A stretch of DNA of 64,000 bases, taken from contig JAJEKV010000003.1 in the NCBI GenBank assembly GCA_021234155.1, positions 11,036,413 to 11,100,412 on the forward strand, read 5' to 3'. Both the position numbers and the translations under genes were made by a program. Under the pieces are notes generated by a model. The model saw only the letters and a program-made list of their open reading frames with translations, was not told the DNA's origin and made no database searches. The stretch is from Isoetes taiwanensis (taxonomy: Eukaryota > Streptophyta > Lycopodiopsida > Isoetales > Isoetaceae). Every line of letters starts with the position of its first letter. The stretch's first letter is position 1. Positions 6,950-64,000 of the stretch are shown one piece after another.

Positions 6950-7275
6950 ATTAAAAAAATTTTGGGCCCTTCGGGCCCTAACTAAAACAAACATAGGTAA
7001 ATAAAAAGCACAATAACACGAAGACAAACAAATTATTTCCATGGCAAATGGATTCAATTGATGATTGCATGTATGCATTCTTATATACATGGCATTCAAG
7101 TATTACCCATTTTCCTCAAAACAGTCAATAAGCCGCTTAAGAATTTCCTAGCCGCTTAAGGAACCCCTGACGAGAGACACTGTTGCAATATCACAAATGA
7201 TTTCCTATCCTATATTGGCATTTATGGATTTTTCACGAGTCGGAGTATGATCTATGCATAATACAAGCATAGGCC

Positions 7276-7603: not shown

Positions 7604-7842
7604 AACTAGAAAGGGGAACAGATAAAGTTTACCTTTATGGACCTTGTCTTGTATAACAAATTGTAAACCGAGGCAATAACAAAAGAAGTAAGGCATTAAC
7701 CATAGATTTCAAGGAACTACCAATGACAAGATGGCGCCAAGAAGATTTGTAAAGATAGCAATTGCATGGCTAGCTGAACATCATAAGCTCGTGATTCACC
7801 AGTTTTCAATTTTTCTATGTTAATTGACGAGATAAATGACCA

Positions 7843-29240: not shown

Positions 29241-31980
29241 CCATTTGATGTGCATATGCAAACCCTAAACCGATATCTCCACATGCAAATCGTAATCTGC
29301 TCCATAGATTATAGACTTTAGGGTTCATAGACGATAAAACATATCAAGAAAGCGAAAAGAATCCATACCGGATGAATAAAGGGAGCTTTCCGGGCCCATA
29401 GCCGGGTAGCATTATAGTCACCGCTTGGATGAGCCGAAAGCAGAAGAAAGAAAGAAGGGCAAAAATCTCCCAAATCGTCAAGAGTTGCATAGCCGAGATT
29501 AAGGGAGATGAGATTATGCCCTAGAGGGTATAAGGAAGGGATAAACATGTGCTCAACTCGCCGTAACCCCGGACGGAAGGCGAAGGGAGGGCGCGAATCC
29601 GAGGTGCGTAAGCCATAGCCAAGTCCGGCCGGATAGCGTTTGTGTAGCAGTCGATAATGGGGCCGGATGACCGACCATTTACGTGCAAAGCACCCGGTTT
29701 TAGCAGTCATCAGTATATGCTAGGTATATGCCAGCATATACTTGAATATGCCCACATACCCACATAAACGAAGGTTTGCCCCCCTAGGGGCAACCCCAAA
29801 AAAAACGGAGAAGCCTAAGGTACCTTTTGGCCCTTGCAAATTTACCCAGTCTATGGCTAAATTTGTATTGGTTGGCTGCAGGTATGTCCTCTTAATATTT
29901 TCTTTTGTCCAGTTTGTATTAGGAGTTCTTGGGAGTTTGGCATATGAATGAGACTGGAGCTAGTCAAAACTGAAGATTTCCTAGATGGTTACAAGTAAAC
30001 GGTAGTTACCGCTCATATGCGATGGCTGGAGCCTGTACCAAAACTCTTTGGTGATGTTTTCCTATATCTCACAACTACGGTGTTGATTTTGAAATATGCA
30101 TGTTACTTTAAGTAGTATATTTTGTTAAATACAGACCAATCTGAAAAACATTCCACTTCCACCACACCTACATCTTTTGATATTCCTACAGCTTCATCAT
30201 CTGCTCTCACCTATCCTAGTGCAGTACGCCTACCTTCGAAACTGAAATTTAATCCTTAGGAGGAAAAGAAGTTGGCAGATCAAACTACTCAAAAACTGGA
30301 AGAGTTCAAGAGATTTTATCTTATGGGGGTCAACTGGTTCACTAAAGTCAGTATTTTTGATTGTGAATCTGCACCGGCCAATCACAGAACTCGGTCCAAT
30401 GACCATGTCCAAACGTTACTGAGGAGTTTTAACTAGGAAATCTAAATTTGATTCTCATATTAAATCAGGATTTGTGGTAATACATGTGACTACATATAAA
30501 ATTGTGCTTTACTATTCGAACGAATCTTATAATATGAGAAATTCAAGACTCATGAACATAATAATGTATGACTGAAAAAACAAGTGAGTAAAAAATGAAA
30601 GATATTATTGATATTTGTGAAAATATATTTGTAAGAAAGTCTCTCTCTTAATAATAAAGGTGTTATATTTTCCTAGGTTCTTAATGAGCACAACATAGTG
30701 TACTGGTTACTCATGTAACCTTGTATTCTTGAACATCAATGATTAATAGTCCTACTGTATTTATTGGGCGTTGAGGAACATGACAATTTATGATACTTGA
30801 ACTTCAAGTTTTGTTTGAGTACGAATATACTATAAATCCTAGTAGTTAACTATTTTTCCTAGATTTATGGTACCACCTTGGATTGGAAAGTCCTTGTATA
30901 GCCAGATAAGACAGCGGAGGGATTGACCAATGCTGATGTTTGTGCTAGGCTTAACTAGTTCTAGCCAACTTTTTTATAATAACTCATTCAATTGTTTTAG
31001 GGATATGGTCTATAGTCTTAGAAATGGTGATTTATGCATCCATATCAAATCCCCTTGGAACCCTCAGTTATTGTGCTACATCATGTGGTTTTATATCACG
31101 GTGAATGGCAATTCCTTGGGTGTACTCCCTATTTTAGGTGTTGGGTTCTTTCCGTAATAACTTGGCTCTCAAGTTTTGTCGCTGAGATCAGATCTCGCCA
31201 TTGGTTGTAGTGGTGTTACCCACCAGTAACACACTTGAGGGCCCATAAACACCTAGTTTGTTATGCTAAATGGCCATAATCACCTAGCTTGTTATGTAAA
31301 TCACAACCACCGTAAAGCTCTCGGGCCCAGTTTGTTAAGGCAGATAACACCCTAGAACTCGAGTGTTTATGTCCTGCTATAACGATCTCAGGCCTCCGCC
31401 ATCGATTGTTATAATAGGGCATAACACCCTCGTTCAAGGGTGTTATCCCTCTTATCCCGGTGGCTGTGAATGGATGATTCTTGACATATTCTGGATTCTA
31501 TTGGCTGAGACTTATTCATAATGAGATACCCACACAACCATGATGGAGCAACTATGTGCAACTTGCGTAACTCATTTCCTGGAAATTCCAGTCGAGAATA
31601 CGTATCCCAAAGCGGAAAGGACAAGTTCTTTGTGTGAAAGAGCCCTATATCATGTGTCCCTAAACCCCAACGCATCGCCGAGCTTATTGCTATTTTGACA
31701 CTTGGTCGTGGCTATGGCAGATGCCTTCTGCTCCGGCGATCGGCTAAGCCGTCTTCGGATGCAGCATCGCCGTACAACCTTTCTTAGATCTCCATAAACC
31801 CATTCATTTCTTTTCCCGTTTAAGTCGCTAAATGCGCCTTTTTTGCTTTCTATTTGAGCTCGGGAAGCTGGATCGGGCGCTGGTAATGAGAAGCTGTTCC
31901 CCGGATCGAACTACCATTTTGGGCGATTACTAAGTTTTTTGGGTCCGTTTTGGAGATTAAGATAAGTCACACTTAGTTGA
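29241..31980. other. no complete gene; possible exon remnant and PP2A promoter
   Basis: A plus-strand frame at about 30130-30430 reads TTPTSFDIPTASSSALTYPS, a TAG, then EEKKLADQTTQKLEEFKRFY and NWFTKVSIFDCES; it may be an eroded exon. The minus-strand ORF at 29318-29710 has no recognisable domain. The last ~300 bp before 32012 should hold the promoter and 5'UTR of the PP2A gene. Confidence 0.35.
31414..31451. repeat. short hairpin near the PP2A 5' region
   Basis: GGGCATAACACCCT and AGGGTGTTATCCC form an inverted repeat with a 6-bp loop. The surrounding 250 bp has several further short GTGTTA/TAACAC pairs, suggesting a MITE remnant. Confidence 0.55.
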
Positions 31981-32011
31981 ATCGCATTTTGAAGCTTTTT
32001 GTTGGGCAGCC

Positions 32012-34482
<2,471 letters not shown>

Positions 34483-35391
34483 AGATATCTGCCAAGGCAT
34501 AGGTTTTGGAAATTATTTTTAATGTATAGTGTTAAATTTTAGAACGCATTTTTTTTACTGCCGAATGGTTTATTTATTCATTCTGCATCATCTCTCTTCA
34601 TTATGTGTCTTTATTTTTGAGATAAAGGCCTTGTAAAAGCTATTCATTATACTGTCATCTGTTTTTCACATCAACTGATGGTGGTCAGAAAGTGTTTGGC
34701 TGCAAAGGTTGCCAATGAACTGTTTTTGGTTTTGGCAGTAAAGGAAGTCTGTTTTGGTATTTACATTCCCTATGCTAGTTTGATACACTGAGATGCATGC
34801 TGTCTTCACTATGACTTTTAATTTCAGATTTGCAAGCTGTCATCATTGTCCTTGCAACCCTAAAAAGAAAATGAGAGTTGGTCCCGTTGTGGATAGATTT
34901 CTTTTTATTCATGTTAGCTTCTTAACGTGGTGCAGATAAAGCTGGTGGATTTCTGAAAAGTGGCCAGGAAAGCTTATCTGGAACATAACAAAAAGGCATT
35001 GTTAAATGTTTATAATCCTGCTGTAACGCACTACCGAAAATTAACAAGCTGTATGTAAAACAAATTGAAGCCTTCCCTGCTGTCTAACTTTAATGGAATC
35101 GACTTTCGTTCCCAGCTTTAATTTGGCAGTCTTAATTTAAATTTGTTTCATATTCTGCTAGTTTTAAATGGTCTGTACTTGGGGAGCGGTATCAAGCCCG
35201 AGCAGAGACCAAGCTTAAATCATTCAGTACTTTTTGGTTTTTTTGGGTTGTCCTACGATCAATCCTTGGGGGGTTGGGGGAGGGAGGCCCTTGATTTTAG
35301 AAAAACTTAGAATCTTTTTGATCAACGACCGCAGACTTTTGCGCTTCCAGTGATGCCTAGTGACAGTTAAACGGTGTGGATTTGATGGTAG
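34483..35391. other. PP2A 3'UTR and intergenic sequence
   Basis: AT-rich downstream sequence. No gene seen. Polyadenylation would be expected within the first few hundred bases. Confidence 0.4.
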
Positions 35392-35688
35392 TCAGTTGGA
35401 AGGTGGAGATTCAATCTTCGCTTCTTTTCTTTTCCAGACACTATTGCTTTCACATACCATCAGCAATCCGCATGGGTTTCCCGAAGCTATGTCTCCAATT
35501 CTTCGGGGACGAAAAAAGAGGTTCTGCCAGTGATAACAAGCATAAATGCTATAAGACAAAACATCGTTAGAACAGATTGCCACAAGGACTCCAAATTGAA
35601 AGCTTACTGAAGGTGCTGGCTTCCACTTCTTCGGGCTGCTTGACGCCAGATCAGATCTCGCACCCCACTTCTTAGATGGAATAGACAT
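35392..35688 (-). pseudogene. module gene 2 (Lys/Ser-rich, unknown family), copy A
   Basis: Exon 1 (35608-35688) encodes MSIPSKKWGARSDLASSSPK and a few more basic residues, ending in a GTAAGC donor. Exon 2 starts after an AG at 35549 and still aligns at DNA level with exon 2 of copy B (ITGRTPFFVIEGLETELLDT there). However, copy A has indels that destroy the frame, and the similarity fades near 35392. It is a decayed paralogue of the gene at 63485 (+). Confidence 0.65.
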
Positions 35689-35986
35689 GTCTTGCAAGCA
35701 GCACTGTGCGGCTCGAATGACCTTCCGAACTGCGCCTCTTTCGGGAGTTTATGATTTTGGAAATGCATGTAAAAAAGGTTCCGGCGTGTTCTTAAATTTG
35801 AAATTGAGATATACACTCATTGAAGGCAAAATAGCGGGGTGAGAGTATAGCACGGGCATCCTTATCTCGCCTAAACACAAATTCGAAAATCATCTTCTTT
35901 TTATGGAACTCAGTCCGAGGGGCACATAGGAGCTTATCGAATGCTAGTAGCCGGAGCTGCAGACAGATTTCTCTCGGCGGCTCGTG
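35689..35986. promoter_or_regulatory. shared divergent spacer, copy A
   Basis: 298 bp between two divergent start codons. It aligns with 63175-63484 (310 bp) including GGCGTGTTCTT, a TAGCACGG block and CAAATTCGAAA. Conservation of the spacer in both copies suggests a bidirectional promoter, but no core element is certain. Confidence 0.5.
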
Positions 35987-36547
35987 ATGGCGCCACAACG
36001 TTGTAAGCTCCTAACTTTGCATGAATCTATGGCTCCAACTAATTGAGGCTTTTGGTAAGACTAGTTGATTTGATCAATGTCTGTGGAGCCAAAGTAGCGG
36101 TGGGAGATGAGCTCGAGGACACGACCATTCTTCATTGCAATGCCATGGAGAAGGGATACATAAGAATCGCTTTAGTACAAGTTATTAATAGAGATGTCCC
36201 ATTGATGCGACCGACTGAAGAAGCAAAGACCCTCGGAGAGGCGGCGGGGTCTATGATACAATGGCCCAGGGAATATTTGCGAGAAGAAGTAAGTGCTTTC
36301 CACTTTTTTTATTTGGATGCTTGTTTTCTAGATCTTGTTAGACCTGCTTGAAAAGTTGAGAATGTGGAACTGCTCGGAAGCTCATTCGATTGCTTGTTTC
36401 CTTATTGAGCATATGTCAACGTCGATGAACTTTATGCTTTGGGAGGTGTTGAGTAAGGGAACAAGCAATCGGAGAGACTCCCAAACAGATGCACAACTCG
36501 AAGTTAGGCAGGGCCGATTTGATTACTTGTTTGGTAGATTGGCATAG
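35987..36547 (+). CDS. module gene 1, DUF8039-like domain, copy A
   Basis: Three exons (35987-36002, 36065-36288, 36332-36547) join in phase. The 16-bp first exon gives MAPQR. Exon 2 encodes DLINVCGAKVAVGDELEDTT, then EKGYIRIALVQVINRDVPLM and RPTEEAKTLGEAAGSMIQWP. The last part follows the DUF8039 pattern known from plant transposase-related proteins (P-T-E-E-x-K-T-L-G-E-A-x-G-S-x-I-x-W-P). Exon 3 gives LDLLEKLRMWNCSEAHSIA and ends with a stop. The ~155-residue product is shorter than transposon proteins carrying this domain and has no catalytic motif. The structure is shared with copy B at 62730-63174. Confidence 0.6.
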
Positions 36548-37259
36548 GTAAGACAAAGTGGGTTTCTTATATAGAGGACCTCTACCCAAACTAGGTCCCA
36601 AACCACCCCCAACACATCCCCCCAAAAGGAATAAATTACTACTCCTATATTTTAGTGTAGCCAAAATAGGTTTAGCTAAACTACTTTCAAATTGGGGCTA
36701 GAAGTTTCTAACACTTGGCTAAACTAAATGGCTTTTCTCCATCACAATTTCTTGCTTTTGGCTAAAGGCAAATATTAGCCATCACGCTATAGTAATTTAA
36801 AAAAATCCAAGCATTTTGGAAAAGACATTGAATTTATTATAAATACATAAATCAACATACAAACATACATGAACATATTCAAAAACCTAAAAAAAAGGAG
36901 AATACATTGTTTTTTTCTTCTAATGCTTCAACTTTATACTTGGAACAAGAAAGAAAGTGGAAAAAGAAAAAAGAAAAATATAAACCCTATTTGAAATTTC
37001 TTAAAGATAGTACATACATTGGTGTTGAATTTCGAGCTAATCTATCCATTTTTCCAAGCCCACTCTATCTTAGGTTTAGCTAATCGATGTCCTGATGGAT
37101 ATGTCTAGAGGTAAAGGTTTGGCTATTCAACCTAAAAACTCACTTGGGCGGCAAAAAAAAATTGGGTTAAAATTTTCTTTTTTTGGGCATTTTTTCCATT
37201 TACTTTAGCCGTTTTTCTTGGCAAAACTGCTACATAATAGCCATTTGGCTAACCTTAGC
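36548..37259. other. AT-rich spacer between module gene 1 and its array
   Basis: No gene. AT-rich sequence with scattered AAAAA runs. Module B has only ~130 bp at the equivalent position, so this may be an insertion in copy A. Confidence 0.35.
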
Positions 37260-38175
37260 CGTTATTTTATTCCATGCCCCCCTCTCCGCCTCACAAATTT
37301 TGAAGGGGAATGGTTCGAAGGAGAGTGCCCTCTTGAGCATGGGCGTGATAAAGAGAGGGTGTTTTGGTAGTGTTGGATGAATACTTTGGATTCCTCTGTA
37401 TTTGCCTTTGGGGGGCCATTCTCCACTTGCGAGTCGAGAATAAGCCTTCTCGACTTCGAGAAGGCCACCTTGTCCTCTGCATTTGCCTTTTGAATGCATT
37501 CTTGCATTGCTACTCGTAGAGGCCTCCACCCAAACTAACGTTTTGGTATGGTAAAGGGATGGTGTTGGCTGAATACTTTGGATTCCTATGTATTTGCCTT
37601 TTTGAGGCTTTCTCGACTCGGAGTCGAGAAGACCTATTCTCGACTCGAGGCCTTCTCGACTCGCAAGACGAGAATAGATCTTCTCGACTCGCGAGTCGAG
37701 AAAGCTCCCTTGTCTTCTGTATTTTCCTTTCGAATGCATTCTCGAGTCCCTGCTCACTAAGGCCTCCACCCAGTCTAGACCCCTCCCTTTCGCAAAATTT
37801 CAAGTAGATGGCTCGAAGGAGAGTGGCCAGACTGGGTAGAGGCATCCGCGACTTGAGAGTCGAGAATGCACTTTTGAGCAAGTGTGGTAAAGAGAGGGTA
37901 TTTTGGTATATTAAAGGGCGGGTGTTGGATGAATACCTTGGAGATTTGTCTTATGGGGGCTTGTCCTCTCTATTTGCTATTCGAATGCATTGGCGACTGG
38001 ACAACTCCGGACAAGGGATATTGAGAGAAAGGAGTCTAGTGTGGGGTGGTTGGCTTCAGTGGGAGAGGTGCGGGTGTTGGCTTCAATGGGGCATTCTCGA
38101 CTCGCCAGTTGGGAATGAATTCACCCAGACTAAGGCTTTTCCAACTCGCGAGTCGAGAATAGGCCGCCTCTCGCC
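37260..38175. repeat. hairpin/palindrome array, copy A
   Basis: Two full hairpins (about 37272-37342 and 37761-37842) have arms containing GGTTCGAAGGAGAG or GGCTCGAAGGAGAG pairing with CTCTCC or CCCTCCC blocks. About eight copies or half-copies of a palindrome with core CTCGACTCGCGAGTCGAG lie at, for example, 37420, 37610, 37680, 37850, 38093 and 38137. A further direct repeat (GGTAAAGAGAGGGT with GTTGGATGAATAC) occurs near 37345, 37545 and 37887. The array lies 3' of module gene 1, as in copy B. Confidence 0.85.
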
Positions 38176-39699
38176 TACCTCGAGAAATGCAGCCATGATG
38201 CTAATCTTGCAAGGGATAACGTATTCTGGGTTAGCTAGATCTGATAGTGCAATTTTTTAATTTCCCTGATATGTTTACAGATCAATCCAATAAACCCATT
38301 TATGGGTTCTTTAATGAAAATGCTTGTTCTTCAATCTTTTCCTTCTTTCGTCTCTTTCAGTTCCTTCTTTTAGTTGACACTTTTAGTTCCTCTTGCTTAT
38401 TGAAGGATCTGGGTAAATAAAACCAATAATCATGGTCTATTTAAACATAGTTCCTGAACTTGAGCTGCCTAAAAATAGTAAATGTAAACATAAAAAAAAT
38501 CGAGCCCAACTCTTTAAGAACGTACCTGTCGGATTTGCTCGAAAAAGAAGTAGGTTCCAAGGCTGCTTTATTCTTTAAATAGGAACTCGAAAACTACGAA
38601 TAGAGGTTTATCGGGCTGGAAATCTTACCAGAGGATAGTAAGATCCTCTAAATATTAGAAAAAAAACACGAAAATAAGAATACAGAAAGAGAAACAGTAT
38701 TTTATAGCAAAAAAGACTTACTACTAAACCCTCACTTTCTTCTGAGGCTGTAATGGCCTTTGGAAGAGATGATTTGGGCAAGGATCTGAGCACTGGATGC
38801 GTCACGATACGTGGACTAGGCGGCTGTCATAAGAAGAGATTGATTCCTGCGTTTCTAGTATTGGCCGGTCTGATTCGGCACGGAGGAAGATGGAGTGAGG
38901 AGAAGAGACAGACAAGAGAAACTGGGATCGAAAATGGATTAAAGTTGTGGAAATAATGGCATTTATTTTCGGCTCCCCCCTCAAACTTGGAGATAAAGTA
39001 ATGTAATTTATGCGGGTGGCATACGGTTTGACCGTATGCCACGTCGGCGAACACGAGGAGAAGCTGACACATGGCTGGTTTAATATTTTAATGCTTTACT
39101 GGCAGGGAAAAAATTAAGCATACTATATATTTTTATAGTTTAGCTATTTTTCAAAATTTTACAGTGCTTTATGATATACATTTGGCTAAAGTTATTATTA
39201 TTATACATTTATACAAGAATTTAGCGCTGGCTCTATGCACAATTGGCAGTCATCGGTAGTTAGCGGATATGAAGCAATATTTGGAAGCATGCAATTGAAG
39301 ACATTTACTTCGTTCAGTTTTATAGAATGGACTGCACGTGATTCATGTCTAAGGTTCTCGTCTTTCATTCGTCTAGGGTTAGGAAGTGTTAAATGATTCA
39401 TTGGTTTATACTTTACGTCAAATGTTTTTTTAATGTTTGCTAACCTATTGTCTATTGCCACGTCATCCTAAATGTTCATGCCATTGAAACTCGTTTGAGC
39501 CCATGATAGGATGGTGAACCAAACTATAAAACGAGTCCACGCTCATGAGATGGTGAAGCAACCCATCCATGCACATGAGATGGTGAACCAAACTTTAAAA
39601 CCAGTTGACTTATGTTGTTGTATTGTTATTTGAGAGGAAAGACCATGGCGTAGTGACTGAACCATAATGAGTGGCTTAGTGAGTGAACGATAATGACAT
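38176..39699. other. no complete gene; possible ribosomal protein L2 remnant
   Basis: The plus strand at 38753-38860 reads GRDDLGKDLSTGCVTIRGLG and GCHKKRLIPAF, which resembles the conserved RITxRHRGGGHKRxxR part of ribosomal protein L2 (organellar type). The match is short and diverged, so it is only a suggestion. The rest is AT-rich with no recognisable gene. Confidence 0.3.
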
Positions 39700-40295
39700 G
39701 AATGTGAGTATTTCAATTGAGTTTGAAGATATACACCATTTTTTTCAACCAAGGTATATCCGTCGCCATTGAACATACCCAGAAGCAGAGATGCTTGTGC
39801 TGCAGCATTCCCATTTAATGAAATGGAGCTAAATCCTTCCTTTTTTACCTCATCTCTCCATCTTTCAAACCTTGCTTCGCCGGATCTGGCAGGGCCCCCA
39901 ATTGCCGGCGGGTTCCCCTAACCAGGCCACTGCCCATAAGTCGTCGGCTCATTCTTCAACAGGCACGCGGCCAGAGATCCAATTCTCCTCCCACTGCTTG
40001 GAAGCTCACGGTTTCATGTTCTATTTCATCCCAATGGGGGTTCTTGATCTCCTGAGACAGTTGCTGCTGCTCCACCATGTGCCTCTCTGCATTGTCTGCT
40101 GGAAAGCTGGCTCCCAAAGAATCAAACAATGCTGAATAGTAATGCATAGCTTCTAAGAAACGACTCAGAAGTGACTCAGATCTTGCTCAAGTCTCAAGAT
40201 CCACTATAGTCACCACCTTGGGCTCAAGCTTTTTTATTAATTGTAGTATTCCATCCCCTGCTCTGATCCCCAAAATTGATTCATCCACATTCCCT
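39700..40295 (-). pseudogene. SCARECROW-type GRAS protein, C-terminal part
   Basis: Minus-strand reading from about 40295 gives NVDESILGIRAGDGILQLIK, KLEPKVVTIVDLE, a stop, [20 protein letters not shown] and [17 protein letters not shown]. After a ~120-bp insertion it resumes with [40 protein letters not shown] and GYTLVEKNG. These are the PFYRE and SAW regions of the GRAS domain, closest in wording to SCARECROW/SCL23 proteins. The final W-x-x-L-x-x-x-S-A-W residues are lost after a frame change near 39715. The 5' half of the same gene is at 46276-46873, beyond a LINE. Confidence 0.88.
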
Positions 40296-40331
40296 CACTC
40301 TCTCTCTAGCGCCCTCACTCTCTCTCTAGCG
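40292..40331. repeat. 20-bp tandem repeat at the LINE 5' end
   Basis: CCCTCACTCTCTCTCTAGCG is repeated twice head to tail, starting at the point where GRAS homology stops. It is probably the 5' end of the LINE. Confidence 0.75.
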
Positions 40332-40674
40332 CCCTCACTGCCCTTGCATAGAGCCCCCTTGATTTGCCCCTTTCTGGCTTTCTCTCTCTAGGGTTTACAG
40401 TCTCTCTCTAGCCCCAAAACCCCCAAACCCCCAAAAGGTGCTTTGACAGCGATTTTGGGTCCCCAAATTAGATTCTGAGCACACTTTTTACAGCCAGAGA
40501 CCCCATAGCCTTTGGAAGTCAGCGCACAGAATAATGTTGAGTTAGGCTCCAACATTTGCCCGACATTGCCATAGCCCAACCAACTGCCTCTTGGCCTTGC
40601 CTAGCCTGGCCACAGCCCTGCCATAGCCTGCCTAGCCCTGCCGGACCTGACAAGCCCCTGCCATAGCCTAAACC

Positions 40675-42274
40675 TTGCTTGACGTGCCATACCCCCAGTC
40701 ATGGCCACAGAAGCAGCCGTGTCCGGACTCACCCCTAGCAGGTGATCTTCCACAGGCCACAGCACCCCACTACGGGCAAACCCCCGCACAGCCTGCTGAC
40801 CTCCCGCAGGCCGAGCCTGCCTGGGAAAACCAAGAAGGGCCACCAAGGAAGCGGCCCCGTGCAGACGCAGTGGACAAGGGAGAGACATCCTCCATGAAGA
40901 AGGAGGCCCGGGCCAAGGCCCACACAGTCAGGCCGGCTCGGCAGCTGAAAGTTGGCTGCCCAGGCCCCACAGAGCCCCCTCTGTTGGCAGAACCTTGGGC
41001 CGCCATCCAAGCTGGGGTTGAGGGCAATAGTGCCCGCATTGCGGGCCTGGAGACGGAGATGGAGTCTGCAACATCTCACGTGTTGCGCAGACAGTTGGTG
41101 ATAGCGAAACAGCAGATCACTGAGTTGGAGACCCAAGCACACCGGCTGGACGACAGCATCCGATTGGTGCACTCTGAGAGGCAGCAAGACCGGCAGGTGC
41201 TCGCAGACATGCAGGCTCGCATGGATAACCTAGACGCTGCCAGGCAGGACAGGGACTGGGCAGAGCGCGAGACACTTGCACTCACGTCTCAACTCCGCAT
41301 CGAGGTTGATGAGGCCAACGACATAACGCGGACAGGCCACACTCCAGTTGGAAGTTGAGGAGGCTACCACTACAAGACAGAGGTTGCAGGCCGCCTTGGA
41401 GGTTAACCAGGCAGCACTGAGCGCCCTTCGGGAGAAGGATTTGGCACGGGATCGGGAAATGCAGGAGCTCCGATCTGTCATTGCCCAGCAAGGCAAGGGC
41501 CTCCAGGCAGAGGCGCATGAACAATGGCAGCACTGCATGTGGGAGATGGCAAGACAGGACCAAGCCTTGCAGCTGAGCTCCAGACTTCGGAGAACAGAAG
41601 CTGCAGCAAATGACACACAAGTACCGCAAGCCCAGCAACCTGCAAGATGTCAATCGGGGTCGCCTGGTCAACCTGAACGCCGGCAGCCACAGCCCCGCCC
41701 TGCCGCACCATCATCACGTGTGCCGCCACCAGGCCAAGTGCCCTCACTGGACGCTGAGCTCCGTGGGCGCAGGCGACGCAGCCACAACCTAGTAGTGCGG
41801 GGCCTGCCGGAAGAGCTGGGAGAGAATCTCACCCGGAAGATACACACACAGATCCTTGGGCGCGTGACGTTTCCTGGTCCAGGACCTGTTCAGGTTACGC
41901 GACCAGCCCGATGTGGGATCCAGCGCCCAGGCCACAGCCGAGTAGTGGTGTTCACGGTTGCGGATGCACGAGTTCGGGAGGCCATACTGCGACAGAGCAC
42001 ATCTCTGTATGTGAGCCAGGATCTTACTCCAGTGCAGCAGGAGGCACGCAGGAGAGAGTTCGCCAGGGTCAGGGACACCCGCAGTCGACCAAATGCTGCA
42101 GCTGCACCCGCTCAGCCAAATGACACCCCTGCTGCCTCTGCTCCTGACCCTTCACAATCTGCCCCTACAACCCGGTCTGCTCCCGCTCAGCCAAATGCTG
42201 CCCCTGCTGCCTCCGCTTCTGCTGGTCCGAAATCTGCCCTCGCAACTCAGCCTGCTCTTGCTGCTGCTCAATAG
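40675..42274 (+). pseudogene. LINE ORF1: coiled coil and RRM-like domain
   Basis: Two overlapping frames form one ORF1. The first (40675-41358) has a Pro-rich start, a basic stretch (PPRKRPRADAV), then a long Gln/Glu/Arg-rich coiled coil. A shift near 41345 moves to the second frame (41348-42274), which continues the coiled coil. It then has RRRSHNLVVRGLPEELGENL and HSRVVVFTVADARVREAILR, an RRM-like core with the N-L-V-V-x-G-L-P first strand seen in L1-type ORF1 proteins. The Ala/Pro-rich end is repetitive (SAPAQPNAAPAA). It is known to bind RNA and nucleate the LINE RNP in this class. Confidence 0.8.
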
Positions 42275-46084: not shown

Positions 46085-46275
46085 GGTGCCGGGAATTCAT
46101 GTGTATATATGTGTATTTGTACAGCTGCCAGCAGGTTTGTTGCTGCGACGGTTTTTCCCTCCTAAGGGGGGGTTTTTTAATCCGGGTAGCAACGGGCTTG
46201 CTGCACCCGTGTAATTTGGGTCCCATAGGCCGATTGGCCTCCGCGGACGATAAAAGAAACTTCCTTCCTTCCTTC
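46085..46275 (+). other. LINE 3'UTR with (TTCC)n tail
   Basis: 190 bp after the ORF2 stop, with GGGGGGTTTTTTAAT and a G/C-rich end, finishing in four TTCC-type units. GRAS coding sequence begins directly after it. Confidence 0.7.
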
Positions 46276-46873
46276 CATTGGCTGTGCTACTGGAATGAAC
46301 TCAAAGTTGAAGCTTAAAGACCGCGCAAAGTCCGATAATCTTCTTCCAGTATCCTGGAGTGCTTCAATTGACCTGCCAAGCCCAGTAATCCTCACTTTAG
46401 ACCTTGACTTAGTCCTTCCAGCAAGAATTTGGAAAAGAGCAGGCCACTGTAATCCCTGCATGATATCCATATCAATTATGTGGATGCTTTCCTGCCCCTC
46501 AAATGCTTCAGCCTTCAATAATGGCCTGGTTTGCTGTAAAATGCGAGAATTTGACAAAGGAACAAATCTCATTGAAGATCTGAAATGCAATACGAATATT
46601 TTTGCGGCTATTCACCTGGTAATTGTTAGGCAATGGGGAGCACATCCCAAGGCAAGAATTTACCAATCTTGATGCCATAGCTTCTGTTATATGCTGCCAC
46701 TCGCTGAATTGATGTTCCATATGGCGACACAAGTTCGCTAACTTGAGGAAGAATTGCATTTGCTTCCTGATATAATTCTCAATAGATAAAGCCTCGGCAC
46801 ATTGGAGAAGCAAAGCCACAATTTGCAAACCTTCATCACCAAATACTGACTCAGTCGTGACTTCGGGCTCCAT
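46276..46873 (-). pseudogene. SCARECROW-type GRAS protein, N-terminal part of the domain
   Basis: Starts at ATG 46873 (MEPEVTTESVFGDEG) without the long variable N-terminus of SCR proteins. DEGLQIVALLLQCAEALSIE is the LHR I start, and EWQHITEAMASRLVNSCLG follows. After a shift near 46510 comes [20 protein letters not shown], the VHIID motif in its SCR-specific form, then [20 protein letters not shown] and FEFIPVA. The frame then runs into the LINE. The C-terminal half is at 39700-40295. In SCR proteins this domain binds SHR and controls endodermis/stem-cell genes; here it is destroyed. Confidence 0.9.
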
Positions 46874-55711: not shown

Positions 55712-56671
55712 ATGGCACCCAAAAGAACTAATGAGGCGTCTGAGCCTGCTGAAGCACAAGACAACCATGAAGCTGCTGCAACACCTACTGTCACTATACA
55801 AGCAAATGCAGGTATACCTTGTCAATACTTTGAGCTAAACATGCCTATTCCAGTCCCTACTTTTGATCCGAGCATGAATGCCAACAATTTCCTCAAGACT
55901 TTTGAAGAGTACTACCAAGAATATGGTTACAAAAAGGGTTGTAAGTTCTCTGAGTTTAAGAAATGTTTCAAAAATGATGAAGTCAGGGCTTGGTTAGAGT
56001 ATGTTATAAGTTTAGGTGCCAACTCTTGGGAAGAACTGGTTAAAAAGTTTTTAGCACGTTTTGGAAAGGTCTTGGATCCCCAAGATTTAATTTTTGAGTT
56101 GCAAACTTTTTGCATTAAGCATGGTGAGAGTGTGCACCAATATGTGGAAAGATTCAATCTCTATCTTGTCAAATGCCAAGTTAATCATGTTCCTAACTAT
56201 ACCTTACATCTAGTGGCTTCTTTTATCAGGGGATTAAGCAGCAGACCGAGGATACACAGAAAGCTATTGAAGATCCAAAAACAAGAGGGATTTGACACAA
56301 TACACAAGGCTTTTACCAAGGCTACTGAAATTGCAGATATGATATCTTATTTACCAGATGATGTGCACCCACCAAGTGATCCCTTTTTTTCAGATTATGA
56401 GCAAGAGTATATGGGAGCAGCACCTGTACCTGTTTATGCTGTCCAAAAGGAGAAAAAGAAGGTAAAGATGGAAGATGCTGAAGCTCCTGCTGCAGATGTA
56501 AGAGCAGAGATCACCAAAATGTCTGAGGCACTGGTTGAGGTAACCAGACAACTTCAAGAACTGAAAAGCTCAAAATTTGAAAAAGAAAAAAAGCTGTGGG
56601 ACATTATGAGGATAGATGCAGTGTTAAAGAGTATTTTGCCAGACAAGAAAAATCCAAAAAGTCGTATTTAA
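55712..56671 (+). CDS. retrotransposon gag, stand-alone ORF of 319 aa
   Basis: Intact frame from ATG (MAPKRTNEASEPAEAQDNHE) to TAA. Residues ~60-200 are a Retrotrans_gag domain: ARAWLEYV-type block (VRAWLEYVISLG), SWEELVKKFLARFGK, ELQTFCIKHGESVHQYVERF and ASFIRGLSSRPRIHRKLLK. The C-terminal 80 residues are charged and probably helical (VTRQLQELKSSKFEKEKKLW). There is no CCHC knuckle, protease or RT after it. It may be a non-autonomous gag-only element or a domesticated gag. The intact frame among so many broken ones is notable. Confidence 0.8.
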   Translation: MAPKRTNEASEPAEAQDNHEAAATPTVTIQANAGIPCQYFELNMPIPVPTFDPSMNANNFLKTFEEYYQEYGYKKGCKFSEFKKCFKNDEVRAWLEYVISLGANSWEELVKKFLARFGKVLDPQDLIFELQTFCIKHGESVHQYVERFNLYLVKCQVNHVPNYTLHLVASFIRGLSSRPRIHRKLLKIQKQEGFDTIHKAFTKATEIADMISYLPDDVHPPSDPFFSDYEQEYMGAAPVPVYAVQKEKKKVKMEDAEAPAADVRAEITKMSEALVEVTRQLQELKSSKFEKEKKLWDIMRIDAVLKSILPDKKNPKSRI

Positions 56672-56854
56672 TTAAAGTGGGACAAATCTTGCATTTTGGG
56701 ACTCGGACTGAAAATGGGACTCACACACCATAATTTTTTTTTTTGAATTGATTGCTTGAATAGAATTACAGATCACACACAAAGAATTGGGTTACTTGTT
56801 TTCCTCACAAATTTTACAAACCACTAGTTGAGAAAGTTTTCAAGCTTCTCAATA
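56672..56854. other. spacer with poly(T)
   Basis: Contains T12 at about 56731-56743, likely the edge of the element carrying the next pseudogene. Confidence 0.4.
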
Positions 56855-59526
56855 TTATCTACCCTCATACAATGATATAGCATGGAGGTTGCTCATGGCT
56901 TTGTCCATCTCCCTTTTTGGGATCTTGTGTGTGTTGTCCTTTGCAGTGTGAGAACCTGGATATGACCATACCACACACTCCACCAATTCCCTCCTTTGAG
57001 GATCAGCATAATTTGCCCTCCACTTCTTCTCCCAGCAATCGGTGTATTGCTCCTTCAAGTTGCCCTTCTTGTGTCTCCCAATGGGCTCCCAATATTGAAT
57101 TTGGAATCCGGGGACGCAACTCCTCTCCATCGAGCATAGTGGTGGTTACATCGAGAGAGTGCCACCCCTAACCATATTGGACCAGTCCTCATCATCGGGC
57201 CTTACTAGCACAAAGTATCCTTCCTTGATGTCCTCAAAGGGATCCCACTCAGGAAGATCAAACCACTTCGGCTTTGAGGCCTTACTTCCCACAAACCACT
57301 TGGAACCCTTGTTAGGACCCAAGTGAACATTCTTAGATGTGCTTGCTCCTTGAGAACCCTCCCATCTTGACTCTGGCAAGAACCCGTCTCTTAGCTTCCT
57401 CCCACATGGTTGTTCAGTTTCTAAGCATGTCACAACTTTCTCCCAGTACTTGATTAGGGAGTCCATTTGATTTTTCTTAAGAGTGGAGGTGTGCTTTCCA
57501 TTTCGAACATCATCCCAGTGCGTTATGTAATCCTTGATGCCCTTCACTAGTTGGCTAGAGTCTTTGACAGTCTTGAAGGGAGGTAGTGGTTTTGGCTGCC
57601 CTTTAGGAATGAGAACTTCACCAGCAGCACCCCTTTGCCACAACTCGATTCCTTGTACAGGCATCCACAACTTGTCACCTGGTCTCCACTTATATTGCAT
57701 GATTGGTATTCCATCCCTAACCCAAAACTTGAACTGAAGTGGCTTAGTGTGTCCTGTCAACTGGTCCTTACCATCTAGCAAGTATCCCTCTACAAATGAT
57801 TTCCAATCTGCAACCTCATCCATCAAGAAAGCCATTGGGTTGGGGTCAATGCAGCTCTCAAACACATCCATTAGTTCAGGGAGACTAGTCACGTTTTCTC
57901 TCTTGAGCTTGGTGGAGAAAGTTCCAAAGAATCCATCTATATCATCATGCGTATGCCCAACCATCATGAATCCCACTTTCACAACTTTGAATACTCCCCT
58001 TCTAACTGTCAAGTATGATTGCCCCCAAACATCCATCTATTCTTGTTTTCTTTCCAACAGTTGTCCAATTGAACACATAACTCCTCGGTGCAAAGTGGTT
58101 TCTCAAGTAAGGGAAATCATCCCAAGTCCTCCTTGATTCACTAGACACCTTGGATGTGAGCTTTTTATCTGCCTTTGGTAACAAAGCGGTTGATCATCCA
58201 TCAAAGCCTCAAAAATGGGTCTTTGAAGGGGAATACCTCCTCCCTTCTATCGATCCTTTCTCTAGTGTTCTCAAGCACTTGAAAATAGAGCTCACATGGA
58301 AGTTTGGATCATCCCTCCATAGATCTAGCACAAAATGACCATATGTTCCAGTTCCATGACCATGTGTTAAGACACCCGCCAGACTTACTTTCATCTGAAA
58401 AGCGTTTTGACAACGCTTGGGTAAAGGATCTAGCTTTGGCAAGAAAGTCTTGTGTTGGTCCATCTTATCATGAATTATACACAAAAATTTGTCCGGCTGC
58501 ATCTCAGAAAATGTTCTCCACTTTGCCAATACAACCGTCTACATGATATTTGGTCCCTTTGGTGATCTGCAAATTGCTCCCTAATTGCCATTCTTTCTTT
58601 CTCTATTGCAGTTGATGCAAGTGTATCCTTGAGTTGAATGCAAGTGTTGCACTTTGAGAATGGCATGTGTTGCAGGACACTCACGTCTGAGAAGTGAGTG
58701 CTCCATAACTTGCTGAAATGTGATTGAGAAAGAGGCCTACCTCCAGTAGTTTCTAGGATGGAGTTGACCTCTTTAAGGCACTCCTTTTGGATATAGTGTT
58801 GTGGCAACACCCTTTGCACCACTCGCTTTGCACCGCTCGTTCACCTTCGACTTGTGGGGCATAGATTGAGACATGTATCTCACAAAGCTCTCAAGACCTG
58901 CAATGGCCTTGAGAGTATTTGCTCTAGGTTTCAAAGTGAGTGCATTACCATGTTGGAACAAACTGTGCCCTTTTCTAACCTGCTCCCAGTATCTGTAGAA
59001 TGAAGACTTGCTCACCCCAAGAATCCATTTCAATGCTCTCATACATACCCTCATGCCCCTCGATTGATATAGTAGCCTTCCTGTGTTTTCATCATAGCTG
59101 GAATTCTTACACAAGAAGTAGATGAAATTAATCCTATCTTTTTGAAGCTGTCCAATGTCTTTGGGACCTTATCTGCACGAGGTCATCCACACTGTACTGC
59201 ACTGTGCAATCTAGGTTGCAACACTCTTGTCCCCTAATTGCCTCTAGGTTTTCTTTGGTTGGGGCCATACTTTCCATCCTTTCTAAATATTTGTCACTTC
59301 TAGGCCTCTTGGGCACCCTTGGCTGCCTTTTATGAAAAACATAACGTCTCTTCCTAGTGATCAAAGGATGCTCATCGACCACCAAATCTTCCACATGGCC
59401 TTGAGTGGGTCTTGGGGTATGTAGTTGAGTAGGGGATTCCAGACTATCACCATTCTTGTGTGTAATATATCTAATTGGCCATCTCAACTGACTTTGGGAC
59501 TCCAGCAACCCAGAGCACCAATGCAA
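56855..59526 (-). pseudogene. DUF7869-like protein, broken into seven frames
   Basis: Consecutive minus-strand frames (59526-59134, 59114-58773, 58822-58475, 58529-58209, 58184-58002, 58036-57146, 57130-56855) are colinear pieces of one ~850-residue protein. Visible blocks are GQECCNLDCTVQYSVDDL (Cys cluster), INFIYFLCKNSSYD, GVSKSSFYRYWEQVRKG, FSKCNTCIQLKDTL, CIIHDKMDQHKTFLPKL, GVLTHGHGTGTYGHFVLDLW and VGFMMVGHTHDDIDGFFGTF. The D-K-M-D-Q, G-H-G and V-G-H-T-H-x-D-I-D signatures are those of the DUF7869 family, often considered transposase-derived. One-base shifts separate the frames. No terminal repeats were identified. Confidence 0.72.
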
Positions 59527-59805
59527 TCACTAGAGCTTCCACGGGACATAATTGTATCAACTTCGATAAGAAGCTTCACAATGCCAACTCCAAGATGATC
59601 ATCTCCCACCTTTCATCATTCACACTATCAAAGGATCAACTGCAGCTTATTATGCCCTCTGCAAATACCGTCTCGTTGCAAGGGTGCAACAACAAGCAAC
59701 CCATCTTCCTCCATTGGAGCCTAGGGCAATGGCACATCGCTGGACTTCCTTGGCTCCATTTTACTCATCTCACATGCTCCCTGAATGAAAAAGCACACAT
59801 TAAAA
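59527..59805. other. 5' flank of the DUF7869-like pseudogene
   Basis: Plus-strand frame 59475-59813 includes DKKLHNANSKMIISHLSSFT and FLHWSLGQWHIAGLP, vaguely Copia gag-like, but too short to call. Confidence 0.3.
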
Positions 59806-60040
59806 CCATATAGCCCCAAACACCACAAATATGACCATATAAACCATATAAAACCATACAAACATATTAAATATAAACCATACAACCGTATATAACCACC
59901 AAAATCATATAACCATATTAAACCATACAACCATATTCAATGTAAACCATATGTAAACATTAAAACCACATATAACCATTGAAACTATATAACCATATTA
60001 AATACACAACATAACACAACATATATAAACATACAACATA
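59806..60040. repeat. AT-rich minisatellite, CCATATAA units
   Basis: About 20 diverged units of 10-13 bp with the pattern (A)AACCATATAACCATATT. Probably replication slippage. Confidence 0.9.
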
Positions 60041-60652
60041 ACCTTTAATATCTTGTCATGGCCACGTGTAAGCCTCTCTCGAGGCGATAGGATGGCCATG
60101 TCAAGAACTCCCGCTTGCCCGTCCCACGTCACGGAGGGCATGGCCCACACGTGACAGATCCTTATTATTGCACTTTTACGAGGTTCGAGGGTGCAGCCAG
60201 AATTAACTGCACCCTCTTCCTCTCCCCACCCGACCATTCTTCCTCCCCTGTTTTCTCTGATCACTCTTCGCTCTCTGTTTTCCTTAAAGCCGGGTTTTCC
60301 CCATCAGGCGATCGAGCGGCAAGCCATTCCAAGGCCATCATATGACAGGCAGCTTGGTCGACGGATCGGGGCAGCGCATCCAACACCGAAGTTTTAGCGC
60401 TTGATTGAGTGTTCGAGCGGGGCTTCGCTGAGAAGAAAGTGAGGTTCTTCTCTGTAAGTTTTAGGCTTTTTCTTTGCTTCTTTTTAGTTTTCTGTAAGTC
60501 CTTTAATGCATTTTTACTTATATTACATTTGTTTCTTGGTCTTATTTTTGCTCTTATATTTTTACTTATATTTTTCTTTGCTCTTATTATTGCACGATAC
60601 AATTTCCAGCCCGACAAATCCTTATTCACGCTTTTAACACTTTTGTAGCCAC
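60041..60652. other. no gene; possible promoter and leader of the next small gene
   Basis: GC-richer stretch (60060-60420) followed by T-rich sequence. Nothing recognisable. Confidence 0.35.
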
Positions 60653-61002
60653 ATGGAATCGAAGACGGGAGCTTCCTCCTCATCCAACAAAATCTTCCGG
60701 TATGTTTTTGTAATATCATACCCTTTTTAATCTTATTTGTCTCTCTTTGTTCTATGTTTTCTCATTAATCTCATTAATCTCTCACATTATCTGTTTTCCT
60801 TTTGTATTGTTTTACTGTTTTGTTATCTTTTTCTTAGTTGTTGTTGAATTGAATACATTGCCGCAGGGCACAAGTGAGAATAGTGGTAAGAGTAGTAGCA
60901 AGCAACCGAGATAGAAATCATCAGAGACAGGTGTTAGGAAGTAAGATATTGCAGAGCATTAACAGAACATTACTAGGAATGATTCACAAAAGAAATTGCT
61001 AA
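60653..61002 (+). CDS. possible two-exon small gene, unknown
   Basis: Exon 1 (60653-60699) encodes MESKTGASSSSNKIF and ends at a GTATGT donor. Exon 2 (60867-61002) begins after TTGCCGCAG and in the joined frame gives RAQVRIVVRVVASNRDRNHQ and further residues to a TAA, 60 residues in all. Alternatively the second exon in its other frame (GTSENSGKSSSKQPR) ends the protein early. Splice signals are good, but there is no similarity I recognise. Confidence 0.25.
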
Positions 61003-61139
61003 ACTGTCTATGAATGTTTAATAACAGAACATAACTAGGAATCTTTTTTCCTAACTATCAACTAAGAATAGGAATTGCTTCACAGAATCTGCAATTCTAA
61101 CGAGATATCCTCCCTTTGCGGGAGAGATGCGAGAGGGGG

Positions 61140-62600
61140 ATCGGCTTTCTCGTGGCGAGTTGAGAATACCTCGGCTTGCCAACAATCCGGGGAAGTCTGA
61201 GGCCTTCTTCTCGACTCGCAGTCGAGAATTTCTCGACTCGCGAGGCGAGAAGAGGGAATGTACACTCTGGATTGTTGGCTGGTTGAGGAATTCTCGACTC
61301 GCGAGTCGAGATTGCACACAGCTACCCAACGTCTTCACATTCTTTTCCAGCCTGCTGCAGCCTTCACATTCTTTTCCAGCCTGCTGCAGCCTTCTCGACT
61401 CGTGAGTCGAGAATGTGATACCCTGTCAATGGCCCTTTGTGCGGTCGCAGGTGCCTCCACCCAGTCCGAGCCGCTCTCCTTCGAACCATCATCGAATATT
61501 GCGAAGGGAGGGACGGACTGGGTGTGGAGGCCTCCCAATAAAACCACGAGGGTGCTGGCTGCTTTCTCGACTCGTGAGTCGAGAAAACGCAGGCTCTAGT
61601 GCATTCTACAGGTGCCTGCAGACAGTCTTAACCACTCTCCTTCAAACTATCTTGCTCGGATATTGCGAAGGGAAGTGGTTTTGACTGTCTGCAGGCCAAC
61701 TCTTAGCAAGCCAATTCTCCTGTGTATGGTCGCAGTGGCCTCTACCCAGTCAGAGACCGTCTCCTTCGAAACATCTTCGTCGAATATTGCGAAGGGGATG
61801 GGCTCGGACTGGGTGGAGGCCTCTACTACTAACCACAGGGAAACCACGGAGCTTGCTGTCTGCATTCTCGGCTCGCGAGTCGAGAATGCCTTATCCAGCC
61901 GGCACTCCATGTGTACTATCTGGAGTTCTCGATGGCTAAGGCATTCTCGACTTGCGAGTCGAGAATGTAGACAGGAAGCCAACACTTGCATTCTCGAGAA
62001 TCCCTTAGCCAGCCAATTCTCCTGTGTATGGTCGCAGTGGCCTCGACCCAGTCAGAGCCACTCTCCTTCGAACCATCTTCGTCGAATATTGCGAAGGGGA
62101 GGGGCTCGGACTGGGTGGAGGCCTCTACAACTAACCACAGGGAAACCACAGAGCTTGCTGTCTGCATTCTCGACTCGCGAGTCGGGAATGCCTCAACCAG
62201 CCAGCACCACATGTGTACCATCTGGAGTTCTCGATGGCTAACGCATTCTCGACTTGCGAGTCGAGAATGCAGAGAGGAAGCCAAGGCTTGCATTCTCGAC
62301 TCGCAAGTCGAGAACCCCTTAGCCCGATCCCACCTGCATTCTCCAGGTGCCTGCAGACAGTCTGAGCCACTCTCCTTCAAACTATATTGCTCGAATATTG
62401 CGAAGGGAAGTGGCCCTGACTGTGTGCAGGCATTTGGGTCTTAGCACAGGTCTCTACAACTAAGCACTCTGTATTCTCCTGTCTTTAGTCCCAAGTGCCT
62501 CTAGCCTGTCCGAGCCACTCTCCTTCGAACCATCTTCCCCGAATATTGCGAAGAGGAGTGGTTCCGACTGGGTAGAGGCCTCTCCGACTAACCACAGGAG
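61140..62600. repeat. hairpin/palindrome array, copy B (six hairpins, ~9 palindromes)
   Basis: Six ~85-bp imperfect inverted repeats lie at about 61450-61532, 61611-61697, 61735-61822, 62037-62124, 62346-62431 and 62493-62580. A typical one has arms with CCAGTCxGAGCCACTCTCC and GGGGAGTGGCTCGGACTGGG around a loop containing TCGAATATTGCGAA. Between them are palindromes with core CTCGACTCGCGAGTCGAG (for example 61290-61313, 61391, 61565, 61865, 61942, 62165, 62244, 62289). A ~302-bp higher-order unit is duplicated (about 61711-62012 and 62013-62315). The array is 3' of gene 1. Confidence 0.92.
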
Positions 62601-62729
62601 GATGCATTTGAACCGCATCTCCTGGGCCTTAGACCTAGCCTGATCTATATACAACATTCCAAGAAAAAATACACCTAAAACGGAACTGTTCAAGTTTACC
62701 CCCGATTCATTGTTTCCGTGCCGAGCATC

Positions 62730-63174
62730 TCTCAACCCAGAGAGTAATTCATCTCTCGAAGCTGAGAAATGCTCGACAAGGAAACAATAAATCCGTCGAG
62801 CTTATGAGCAGTTCCATGATCTAAACACAGACGGCATGTTCTATACAAAATAACACAGGCATCTCTGAAACTCACCTCTTCACGCAGTAATTCCTTGGGC
62901 CATTGTATCACAGATCCCGCAGCCTCTCCGAGAGTCTTTGCTTCTTCTGTCGGTCTCATCAAGAGTGCATTCGCATCTAATACTTGTATCAATGCGATTC
63001 TCGTGTATCCCCGTTCCATGGCGCAGCTAGAGTTCCCGTGTCTGGCAGCTCCTCTCCGCTTCCTACCTTAGCTCCGTGCTCATCGATCAAATCAACTGCT
63101 TGCAATAACACACACGATCAGAAAAAATACACAGAGCAAGGCGCTGCGAGGAGCTTACCGCGTCGCGGCGCCAT
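62730..63174 (-). pseudogene. module gene 1, DUF8039-like domain, copy B
   Basis: Exon 1 (63159-63174, MAPRR) ends at GTAAGC. Exon 2 (63095-62876) encodes VDLIDEHGAKVGSGEELPDT, a one-base deletion near 63030, then MERGYTRIALIQVLDANALL and RPTEEAKTLGEAAGSVIQWP. Exon 3 starts at 62840 and has a TAA (WNCS-stop) where copy A reads WNCSEAH. It then remains open and similar to A (CFLVEHFSASRDELL). The frameshift and the stop disable this copy, but intron positions equal those of copy A. Confidence 0.7.
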
Positions 63175-63484
63175 TCCGGAAGTCACTTACAGTCGATGCT
63201 CGCCTCCCAACTCAAAGTCGCCAATGCCGCAATGAAGATAATCTACACTCCGCTCACTAAGTCCCTGGATGTGATTCAATTTCGAAATGGTGTTTGGGCG
63301 TGCTAAAGCCGACCGTGCTGTACCCTTAGCCCGCTTTTTTTCTTAAATGATTTGCATGTCCTTAAATTCAAATTAAAGAACACGCCCGATCTTTTTTACG
63401 TGCAGTCCTAAAACCTACAACGCGCGGAGGAAACTTAATTTACAGAAGGGTTCGAGCAGGAAGAAGATGCGGGGGCATACAGAC
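63175..63484. promoter_or_regulatory. shared divergent spacer, copy B
   Basis: 310 bp between the start codons of the two divergent genes; aligns with 35689-35986, including GGCGTGTTCTTTAATTTGAA (minus sense). Likely bidirectional promoter. Confidence 0.5.
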
Positions 63485-63887
63485 ATGGCGACTCCGTCCA
63501 AGAAGCGAGGCGCTGGAACAGAAGCTGGTTCTAGCGGCAGCAAGAAGAAAAAGACAGGCGCTCCAGGTGAGCTCTGAGGTTTTTCTTTGGTCGGAATACC
63601 TTTACTGATCCATCCTTTGGTCTTGCAGCATTCACCGCGGACTCACTAGTGATCACTGGCCGAACTCCGTTCTTCGTCATCGAGGGACTAGAGACAGAGC
63701 TTCTTGACACACCAGCAGATTCTTGGTGGTATGTCGAGGTATCAGCAAGTGGGAAGGAGAAAGATCTGTTTCTCCACCAGAGGGACAAGAAGAGCTCCGG
63801 AGACAAGTACAAAAAGGTCGGTGTTGTGCTCTCCGTCTCAGCGCCCGGTCAAGCATCTAACATTTCATGTGGAGGACTGCCAGAAGA
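63485..63887 (+). CDS. module gene 2 (Lys/Ser-rich, unknown family), copy B, 3' cut off
   Basis: Exon 1 (63485-63566) encodes MATPSKKRGAGTEAGSSGSK and then KKKTGAP, a basic nuclear-localisation-like start, and ends at GTGAGC. Exon 2 (63629-63887) continues in phase: FTADSLVITGRTPFFVIEGL, WWYVEVSASGKEKDLFLHQR and a basic DKKSSGDKYKKVG. It ends at a GTAAGT donor (63888), and the next exon lies beyond the window. The frame is intact, unlike copy A. I do not recognise the family. Nuclear DNA- or chromatin-binding would fit the composition, but that is a guess. Confidence 0.6.
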
Positions 63888-64000
63888 GTAAGTTCTACCA
63901 CACGAAAAAATTATCAGTTTCAAATTATTCTCACTCTTCAATGAGCAAGGCGAAGGGCACCGAGAAAAGACCGGCGCCTTTAAATTGTCAGAACCTTGGG
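63888..64000 (+). other. intron of module gene 2, continuing past the window
   Basis: Begins with GTAAGTT. No acceptor followed by a plausible exon is seen before the window end. Confidence 0.4.

Follow-up and report, generated by a model that had tools for sequence, protein, structure and literature searches.

Two look-alike modules, A and B, are found in the window (the whole stretch of DNA that was analysed, 64,000 nucleotides in length), and their features are collected in Table 1. As an earlier note on this DNA had claimed, each module holds a pair of divergent genes: an alignment of 1.1 kb (A 35423-36472 against B 63764-62702; 64% identity, E 8e-94) spans both starts and the spacer between them as well as gene 1. 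The borders of the gene 1 exons are common to both modules (16 nt for exon 1 in each; for exon 2, 224 nt in A versus 220 nt in B, which has lost 4 nt); the spacer between the starts, 298 bp in A and 310 bp in B, includes a stretch of 136 bp that is 76% identical. The homology picks up again past the array (38598-38720 against 60627-60504) and continues weakly to about 38835/60340, so that the common block amounts to approximately 3.4 kb. The structured array is real as well: 14 matches to its palindrome (≤3 mismatches) were observed in the window, all of them within A or B, as compared to 0 in 100 shuffles. An Rfam search over the whole 64-kb window gave 0 matches at the gathering score.

Table 1. 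Features of modules A and B (positions are those of the window; gene models are putative).
Feature	Positions	Strand	Remarks
A, decayed relative without TIRs	35425..39102	+	limits of match with relatives C (contig C919) and D (contig C1047)
A, decayed start of gene 2	35395..35688	-	by eye
A, gene 1 exon 1	35987..36002	+	
A, gene 1 exon 2, open frame	36065..36288	+	
A, nested dispersed repeat of ~650 bp	36628..37276	.	unrelated to the module; 37 further copies scored; C and D lack it
A, palindrome/hairpin array	37300..38175	+	
A, block past array	38598..38835	+	homologous to B 60627-60340
B, transposon, part within window	56659..64000	-	aligns over its full length with copy E; abrupt stop at either end in each copy
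B, TIR AAGTCGTATTTAATTAAAGTGGGAC	56659..56683	+	3' end of element in gene 1 orientation; mate at 69866-69890
B, exon 3	56855..59780	-	DUF7869 part; frameshifted/stopped in B
B, intron 2	59781..62875	-	~3.1 kb, holds array; splice sites read in B, acceptor also in copy E
B, array	61150..62600	-	22-bp palindromes TTCTCGACTCGCGAGTCGAGAA and ~90-nt hairpin units
B, conserved hairpin in intron 2, close behind exon 2	62659..62819	-	30 copies aligned
B, exon 2	62876..63095	-	N-terminal domain; 4 nt missing in B copy
B, exon 1	63159..63174	-	16 nt, start codon; conserved in A
B, spacer between divergent starts	63175..63484	.	310 bp
B, first exons of gene 2	63485..63888	+	start of long divergent coding region leaving window

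The limits first assigned to module B (61140-63887) proved to be the middle of a 13.2-kb element, the true ends of which are at 56659 and 69890 (13,232 bp); the right end lies outside the window. The alignment of B with a second copy, E (contig C1046:4541503-4554149), runs from about 69890 to 56659 (12.6-13.2 kb), with long blocks at 93-96% identity, and in both copies AAGTCGTATTTAATTAAAGTGGGAC forms perfect 25-bp inverted ends. A match to Retrotrans_gag (E 7.8e-9, on 55646-56668) flanks B, and the gag-like frame stays open when the flanks are joined across the element (phase counted by hand), which indicates that B is an inserted DNA transposon. B is a member of a class II family with terminal inverted repeats (TIRs).

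The source genome (1.658 Gb, 1,110 contigs) was searched for further members of this family. Exact AAGTCGTATTTAATTAAAGTGGGAC was found at 2,217 places (1,102 forward and 1,115 reverse), and a reversed control pattern at 0; with B as the query, 278 matching stretches were obtained from 40 scored candidates, the longest of them at 75-93% identity. The same 25-bp ends bound two more full-length copies, F and G, and five short copies, all chosen by exact AAGTCGTATTTAATTAAAGTGGGAC. Among the first 100 places listed, 30 pairs of TIRs face inward at a distance below 30 kb (12 of 3.5-5.8 kb, 14 of 11-14.8 kb and 4 of 23-27 kb), the two main size classes of the listed pairs being 11-15 kb and 3.5-6 kb, the latter non-autonomous. 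As 40 of these 100 ends have no inward-facing partner within 30 kb, the number of intact copies is probably below half the count of ends (2,217).

Terminal repeats and target-site duplications (TSDs), which the earlier note had proposed to look for at the outer edges, were both found in the family. Twenty end pairs were picked from those listed, half of them about 12 kb and half about 4 kb in size; an exact 4-bp TSD was present in 18 of the 20, as compared to 2 of 380 mispaired ends. The exceptions are the pairs on contigs C16, with 5 bp, and C6, with none; one of the 18, on C79, lies in poly-A. Copy E is flanked by TACA on both sides, and a matching 4-bp TSD was not found at the flanks of B.

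Four full-length copies were read (B, E, F and G). Their layout is common to B, E and F; G is missing most of the ORF found at 2864-3742 in E, and carries approximately 0.8 kb, absent from F, before exon 3. The indels between full-length copies are mostly not multiples of three, indicating that these copies have decayed. The 4-kb class has essentially only the ends and the palindromic stretches in common with E.

The exon 3 region of B matches DUF7869 (PF25273) at 57149-58036 (E 1.4e-23, 83.9 bits against a cut-off of 26) and at 58212-58538 (E 1e-4), and its read-through yielded 93 relatives at E≤1e-3. In 8 of the 93, proteins of 847-1,074 aa, PF26133, which we take to be DUF8039, is placed beside DUF7869 by precomputed annotation; hmmscan of four relatives so annotated gave no match to PF26133 at E≤0.1. 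The DUF8039 domain previously attributed to gene 1 was not recovered by hmmscan at E≤1. Independently, the gene 1 peptides show strong homology to such proteins: a profile of 18 of 34 gene 1 loci (the ones in which the exon matched completely and had no stop) was aligned by hhalign to the N-termini of ten single-protein DUF7869 relatives at 97.7% (E 2e-12, 73 columns), whereas six other blocks of the relatives' proteins, used as controls, gave at most 0.3%. As a separate observation, the N-terminal domain weakly resembles Transposase_23 (E 6.6e-4 and 19.9 bits for the protein P0003, with a cut-off of 21; E 0.23 for gene 1).

Exons 1 and 2 of A add up to 240 nt, so that exon 3 would be entered in frame. 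The N-terminal homology, the acceptor at 59781 and the frame together argue that gene 1 and the DUF7869 stretch are one gene; exons 1-2 are most likely spliced to exon 3, with the array inside the 3.1-kb intron 2. The earlier note had gene 1 as a complete gene with the array 3' of it. The array stands, but gene 1 appears to be the 5' part (exons 1-2) of a gene that goes on past the array with exon 3, the DUF7869 part. The longer form of exon 2 is present in 15 of 29 other B-type rows of the alignment, and the remainder differ in length or align partly.

None of the four full-length copies has an intact exon 3. A copy on contig C907 has a stop-free exon 3 stretch of 830 aa, including some 23 residues that precede the acceptor and not reaching the end of the exon, which shows 34% identity with P0001 and 36% with P0008. 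Differences in the exon 3 core are commonest at the third codon position (positions 1/2/3: E versus F 2/7/11, E versus G 4/2/9); no such excess was seen in exon 2 (E versus F 14/14/17, E versus G 16/11/13). Acidic residues D515, D518, D676, D716 and D718 (P0008 numbering) are nearly invariant among the relatives. We infer that the DUF7869 protein is most likely the transposase, with a catalytic role. A comparison of the DUF7869 profile with solved structures gave 4 matches at E≤10, the best of which (E 0.016) is not credible.

On the other side of the spacer, three large ORFs of E (element positions 4570-5199, 2864-3742 and 2092-2934) show an excess of third-position differences from F. At positions 1/2/3 these number 28/31/44, 27/32/71 and 31/28/52, respectively, as compared to 62/68/68 in an intron control. 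None of the three has a Pfam match at E≤1. The ORF next to them, which makes up the far end of the divergent side, has a match to the NIF phosphatase family (PF03031; E 2.6e-9, 37.4 bits against a cut-off of 21.8). HAD phosphatases usually carry the motif DxD; while the far end resembles the NIF/FCP1-like members in its match to PF03031, its motif is FDVNG, so that the second Asp appears to be replaced. Here the third-position excess is weak (third versus first and second position: 33 versus 22 and 19 in F, 28 versus 26 and 25 in G, 6 versus 3 and 7 in B). Searches for relatives returned none at E≤1e-3 for the divergent coding region among 7,059 candidates, selected by length and shared words, and none for the phosphatase-like part among 318 candidates selected by length; no solved structure matched the latter at E≤1. 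The divergent region would encode one or more putative accessory proteins.

The palindrome TTCTCGACTCGCGAGTCGAGAA occurs exactly at 3,678 places in the source genome, as compared to 0 for its control. At ≤3 edits, E has 19, B 17, F 9 and G 7, and 20 shuffles of F had 0. An indel-free search at ≤4 mismatches detected two in G and none in F, in which the palindromes were missed because of one-base indels. In E they form groups at 2014-2066, 3788-4462 and 6999-8180, none of which overlaps the three large divergent ORFs; the group at 2014-2066 lies within the stop-free frame of the phosphatase-like part, in its upstream end. The palindrome is linked to the ends of the element: among the 50 places listed (contigs C1-C78), 29 have an exact TIR no more than 13 kb away, where about 3.5% would be expected, and the same holds for 19 of 30 clusters. 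It was also present (≤3 mismatches) in all five non-autonomous copies read, on both sides in three of them (L085, L087 and L088), on the left only in L086 and as a single palindrome on the right in L089. In these copies the palindromes lie approximately 0.5-1.3 kb from the ends, and in the autonomous copies read they are internal. The earlier proposal of a transposon family with a second gene and structured repeats is thus upheld, except for the subterminal position of the repeats, as the main array of the autonomous copies read is in intron 2 and smaller groups are in other gaps.

The larger hairpins were examined for maintained pairing. In the hairpin adjoining exon 2 (30 copies), 96.5% of cells are paired, as compared to 32-52% in slid controls, and 8 of 30 pairs have changed on both sides, as compared to 2.4 in shuffles. 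The array units of about 90 nt (139 distinct units from 31 sequences, some loci overlapping) have a median fold of -45 kcal/mol, versus -25 when shuffled. When the first unit's fold was applied to all of them, a test that leans towards that structure, 87.0% of cells were paired (83.7% shuffled, 38-50% slid) and 128 cells had a double change (at most 82 in 300 shuffles, and up to 90 in slid versions). The number of array-unit pairs with a double change, 17, did not exceed that in the controls (mean 16.5 and maximum 22 in shuffles, 13-18 in slides), and RNAalifold found no structure in the gapped alignment of the 139 units. Covariation counts of this kind are inflated by shared ancestry, and both hairpin structures were derived from the same sequences that were tested. 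These data support a maintained complementarity, which seems clearer in the hairpin adjoining exon 2 than in the array units, and do not single out any one role.

Module A is a truncated, decayed relative of the family of B. Its gene 2 has stops in the frame used by B (by eye), and no TIR was found at A. C and D are its closest relatives (79-88% identity by piece), and of the region compared (33000-42000) they match only within 35425-39102. The match stops ahead of exon 3, and D runs into exon 3, to approximately B 58497.

Taken together, the observations are very probably explained by B being a high-copy plant DNA transposon with a DUF7869 transposase, an accessory region and palindromes that may serve as dimer-bound sites, and by A being its truncated relative. 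The autonomous element would be some 11-15 kb in length, with 25-bp inverted ends and a 4-bp target duplication. Its three-exon gene (a DUF8039-like N-terminus and a DUF7869 core) would make the transposase, which may bind the ends, excise the element and insert it elsewhere in a cut-and-paste manner; the divergent second coding region would supply the accessory protein or proteins. The 22-bp palindromes and the larger hairpins could be sites for a dimeric protein encoded by the element, gathering its ends or tuning its expression. For the palindromes this role is a prediction from sequence that we put at not quite an even chance.

Two other readings concern the palindromes and hairpins and leave the transposon as it is. 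They may be selfish or slippage-prone repeats that pile up in non-coding parts of the element and have no function for it. The tandem duplication of about 302 bp inside the array of B, the variable number of palindromes among the four full-length copies and the 21 of 50 listed palindromes (contigs C1-C78) that are not near an exact TIR all agree with such a passive origin, which we consider rather doubtful: the array occupies the same place after exon 2 in A-type and B-type modules, which are about 36% divergent, no non-autonomous copy read is devoid of the palindrome, and its link to the TIR is strong among the places listed. Alternatively, the repeats may act as RNA, controlling the splicing of the transposase transcript or feeding small-RNA silencing. 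The position of the main array within the inferred intron, the pairing kept by the hairpin adjoining exon 2 and the stable folds and double-change cells of the array units would fit this possibility. Nonetheless, palindromes are present outside the intron too, in further gaps and in non-autonomous copies lacking the gene; the slid versions reach 90 double-change cells, kinship and the origin of the structures weaken the covariation, and the 22-bp motif, a perfect palindrome with no loop, fits a protein dimer better than an RNA hairpin. Since the double-change pairs of the array units did not rise above the shuffles, a role as RNA was weighed lower, and regarded as unlikely, and a passive origin was weighed higher.

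It is very improbable that A and B are instead two copies of an ordinary host locus produced by segmental duplication, as the earlier note had also considered. C and D, which share at least 8.1 kb, more than the module, at 97.4% identity, would be in line with such an event. B, however, stops abruptly at exact TIRs that it has in common with more than 2,000 other ends in a family with TSDs, and it sits inside a gag frame that resumes on its far side; outside the module, the surroundings of A and B share few matches, short or LINE-like. For B and for those TIR-bounded copies that were read, an origin as a host locus is excluded; A is a truncated remnant. The large syntenic duplication that had been raised as a counter-argument was not observed for A and B.

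With the transposon reading, a domain of unknown function, DUF7869, gains a likely job that can be tested against precise ends and a precise target-site size, and the 2,217 exact element ends of a single plant genome are traced to one family. The design of its cis-elements would also be unusual, with thousands of identical palindromes, some of them in the putative transposase intron, that are kept by defective relatives.

Among known systems, the CACTA/En-Spm elements have CACTA...TAGTG ends, a 3-bp TSD, a TNP2-type transposase and subterminal repeats bound by an element protein. The family of B is similar in being a large plant TIR element with two coding regions and arrayed repeats as candidate protein sites, and in the weak likeness of its N-terminal domain to Transposase_23; it differs in that the repeats are internal in the autonomous copies read. 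Membership in CACTA is excluded: its ends are AAGTCG...CGACTT, its TSD is 4 bp in 18 of 20 pairs and 3 bp in one (the poly-A pair), and a Pfam scan of ORF pieces of B and E gave DUF7869 and NIF and no CACTA transposase. Sola1, with a TSD of 4 bp, and Academ, with 3-4 bp, are both TIR elements of broad host range; they resemble the family of B in the TIR and the 4-bp TSD. Curated Sola1 and Academ elements of bivalves are reported to average 5.4-5.6 kb (PMC10294476), as compared to 11-15 kb here.

A close likeness is also seen to the DUF7869 (PF25273) proteins themselves, which have the same domain in a colinear protein and are 22-43% identical to the gene of the element; organism names attached to 5 of the 93 relatives are Ceratodon, Riccia and Mercenaria. 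A full-text literature search, with Repbase Reports and most subscription journals outside its scope, found nothing on DUF7869, DUF8039 or the motif HTHEDID, and a wider one, covering titles and the openings of abstracts, found no element of this kind. We tentatively suggest, as a possibility that falls well short of an even chance, that DUF7869 defines a transposase superfamily undescribed in print, spanning mosses, liverworts, vascular plants and animals, the large plant members of which carry a divergent accessory region and a private palindromic binding code, located in the intron and in other gaps of both autonomous and non-autonomous copies.

Copy B, the transposon with 25-bp inverted ends, is an insertion into a retrotransposon-like gag frame, which stays open once the two flanks of the element are joined; the joined flanks show no 4-bp duplication. 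At C907:9795113-9797602, on another contig of the genome, 830 aa of exon 3, the DUF7869-encoding exon of the putative transposase gene, can be read without a stop, so that some element copies may, judging from sequence, still encode a near-complete protein. Full-length copies on small contigs (C16 and C22) contain one-base indels, some of them inside the 22-bp palindromes, and these reflect either real decay or assembly error.

Features located in and outside the window
Feature	Position	Remark
Retrotransposon-like gag frame	55646-56668, resuming past 69890	host sequence of B insertion
Full-length element copy	C16:327873-339935	small contig
Full-length element copy	C22:321970-334031	small contig
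Nested dispersed repeat, ~650 bp	36628-37276	within A

As judged by eye, exons resembling a PP2A catalytic subunit gene (31961-34310) end immediately left of A, the truncated relative of B, and an ORF at 46180-46873 (-) resembles a GRAS-family protein. An ORF adjoining D (L010 reverse complement, 964-1578 (-)) resembles, again by eye, a Helitron helicase in its N-terminal portion. C and D, the closest relatives of A, may have been carried together, as they are 97.4% identical across at least 8.1 kb. The repeat nested in A is absent from C and D. A genome search, in which 40 of 2,283 candidates were scored, yielded 37 further copies at 89-93% identity; with termini read by eye as GGAATAAA...TTTATTCC, the repeat is MITE-like.
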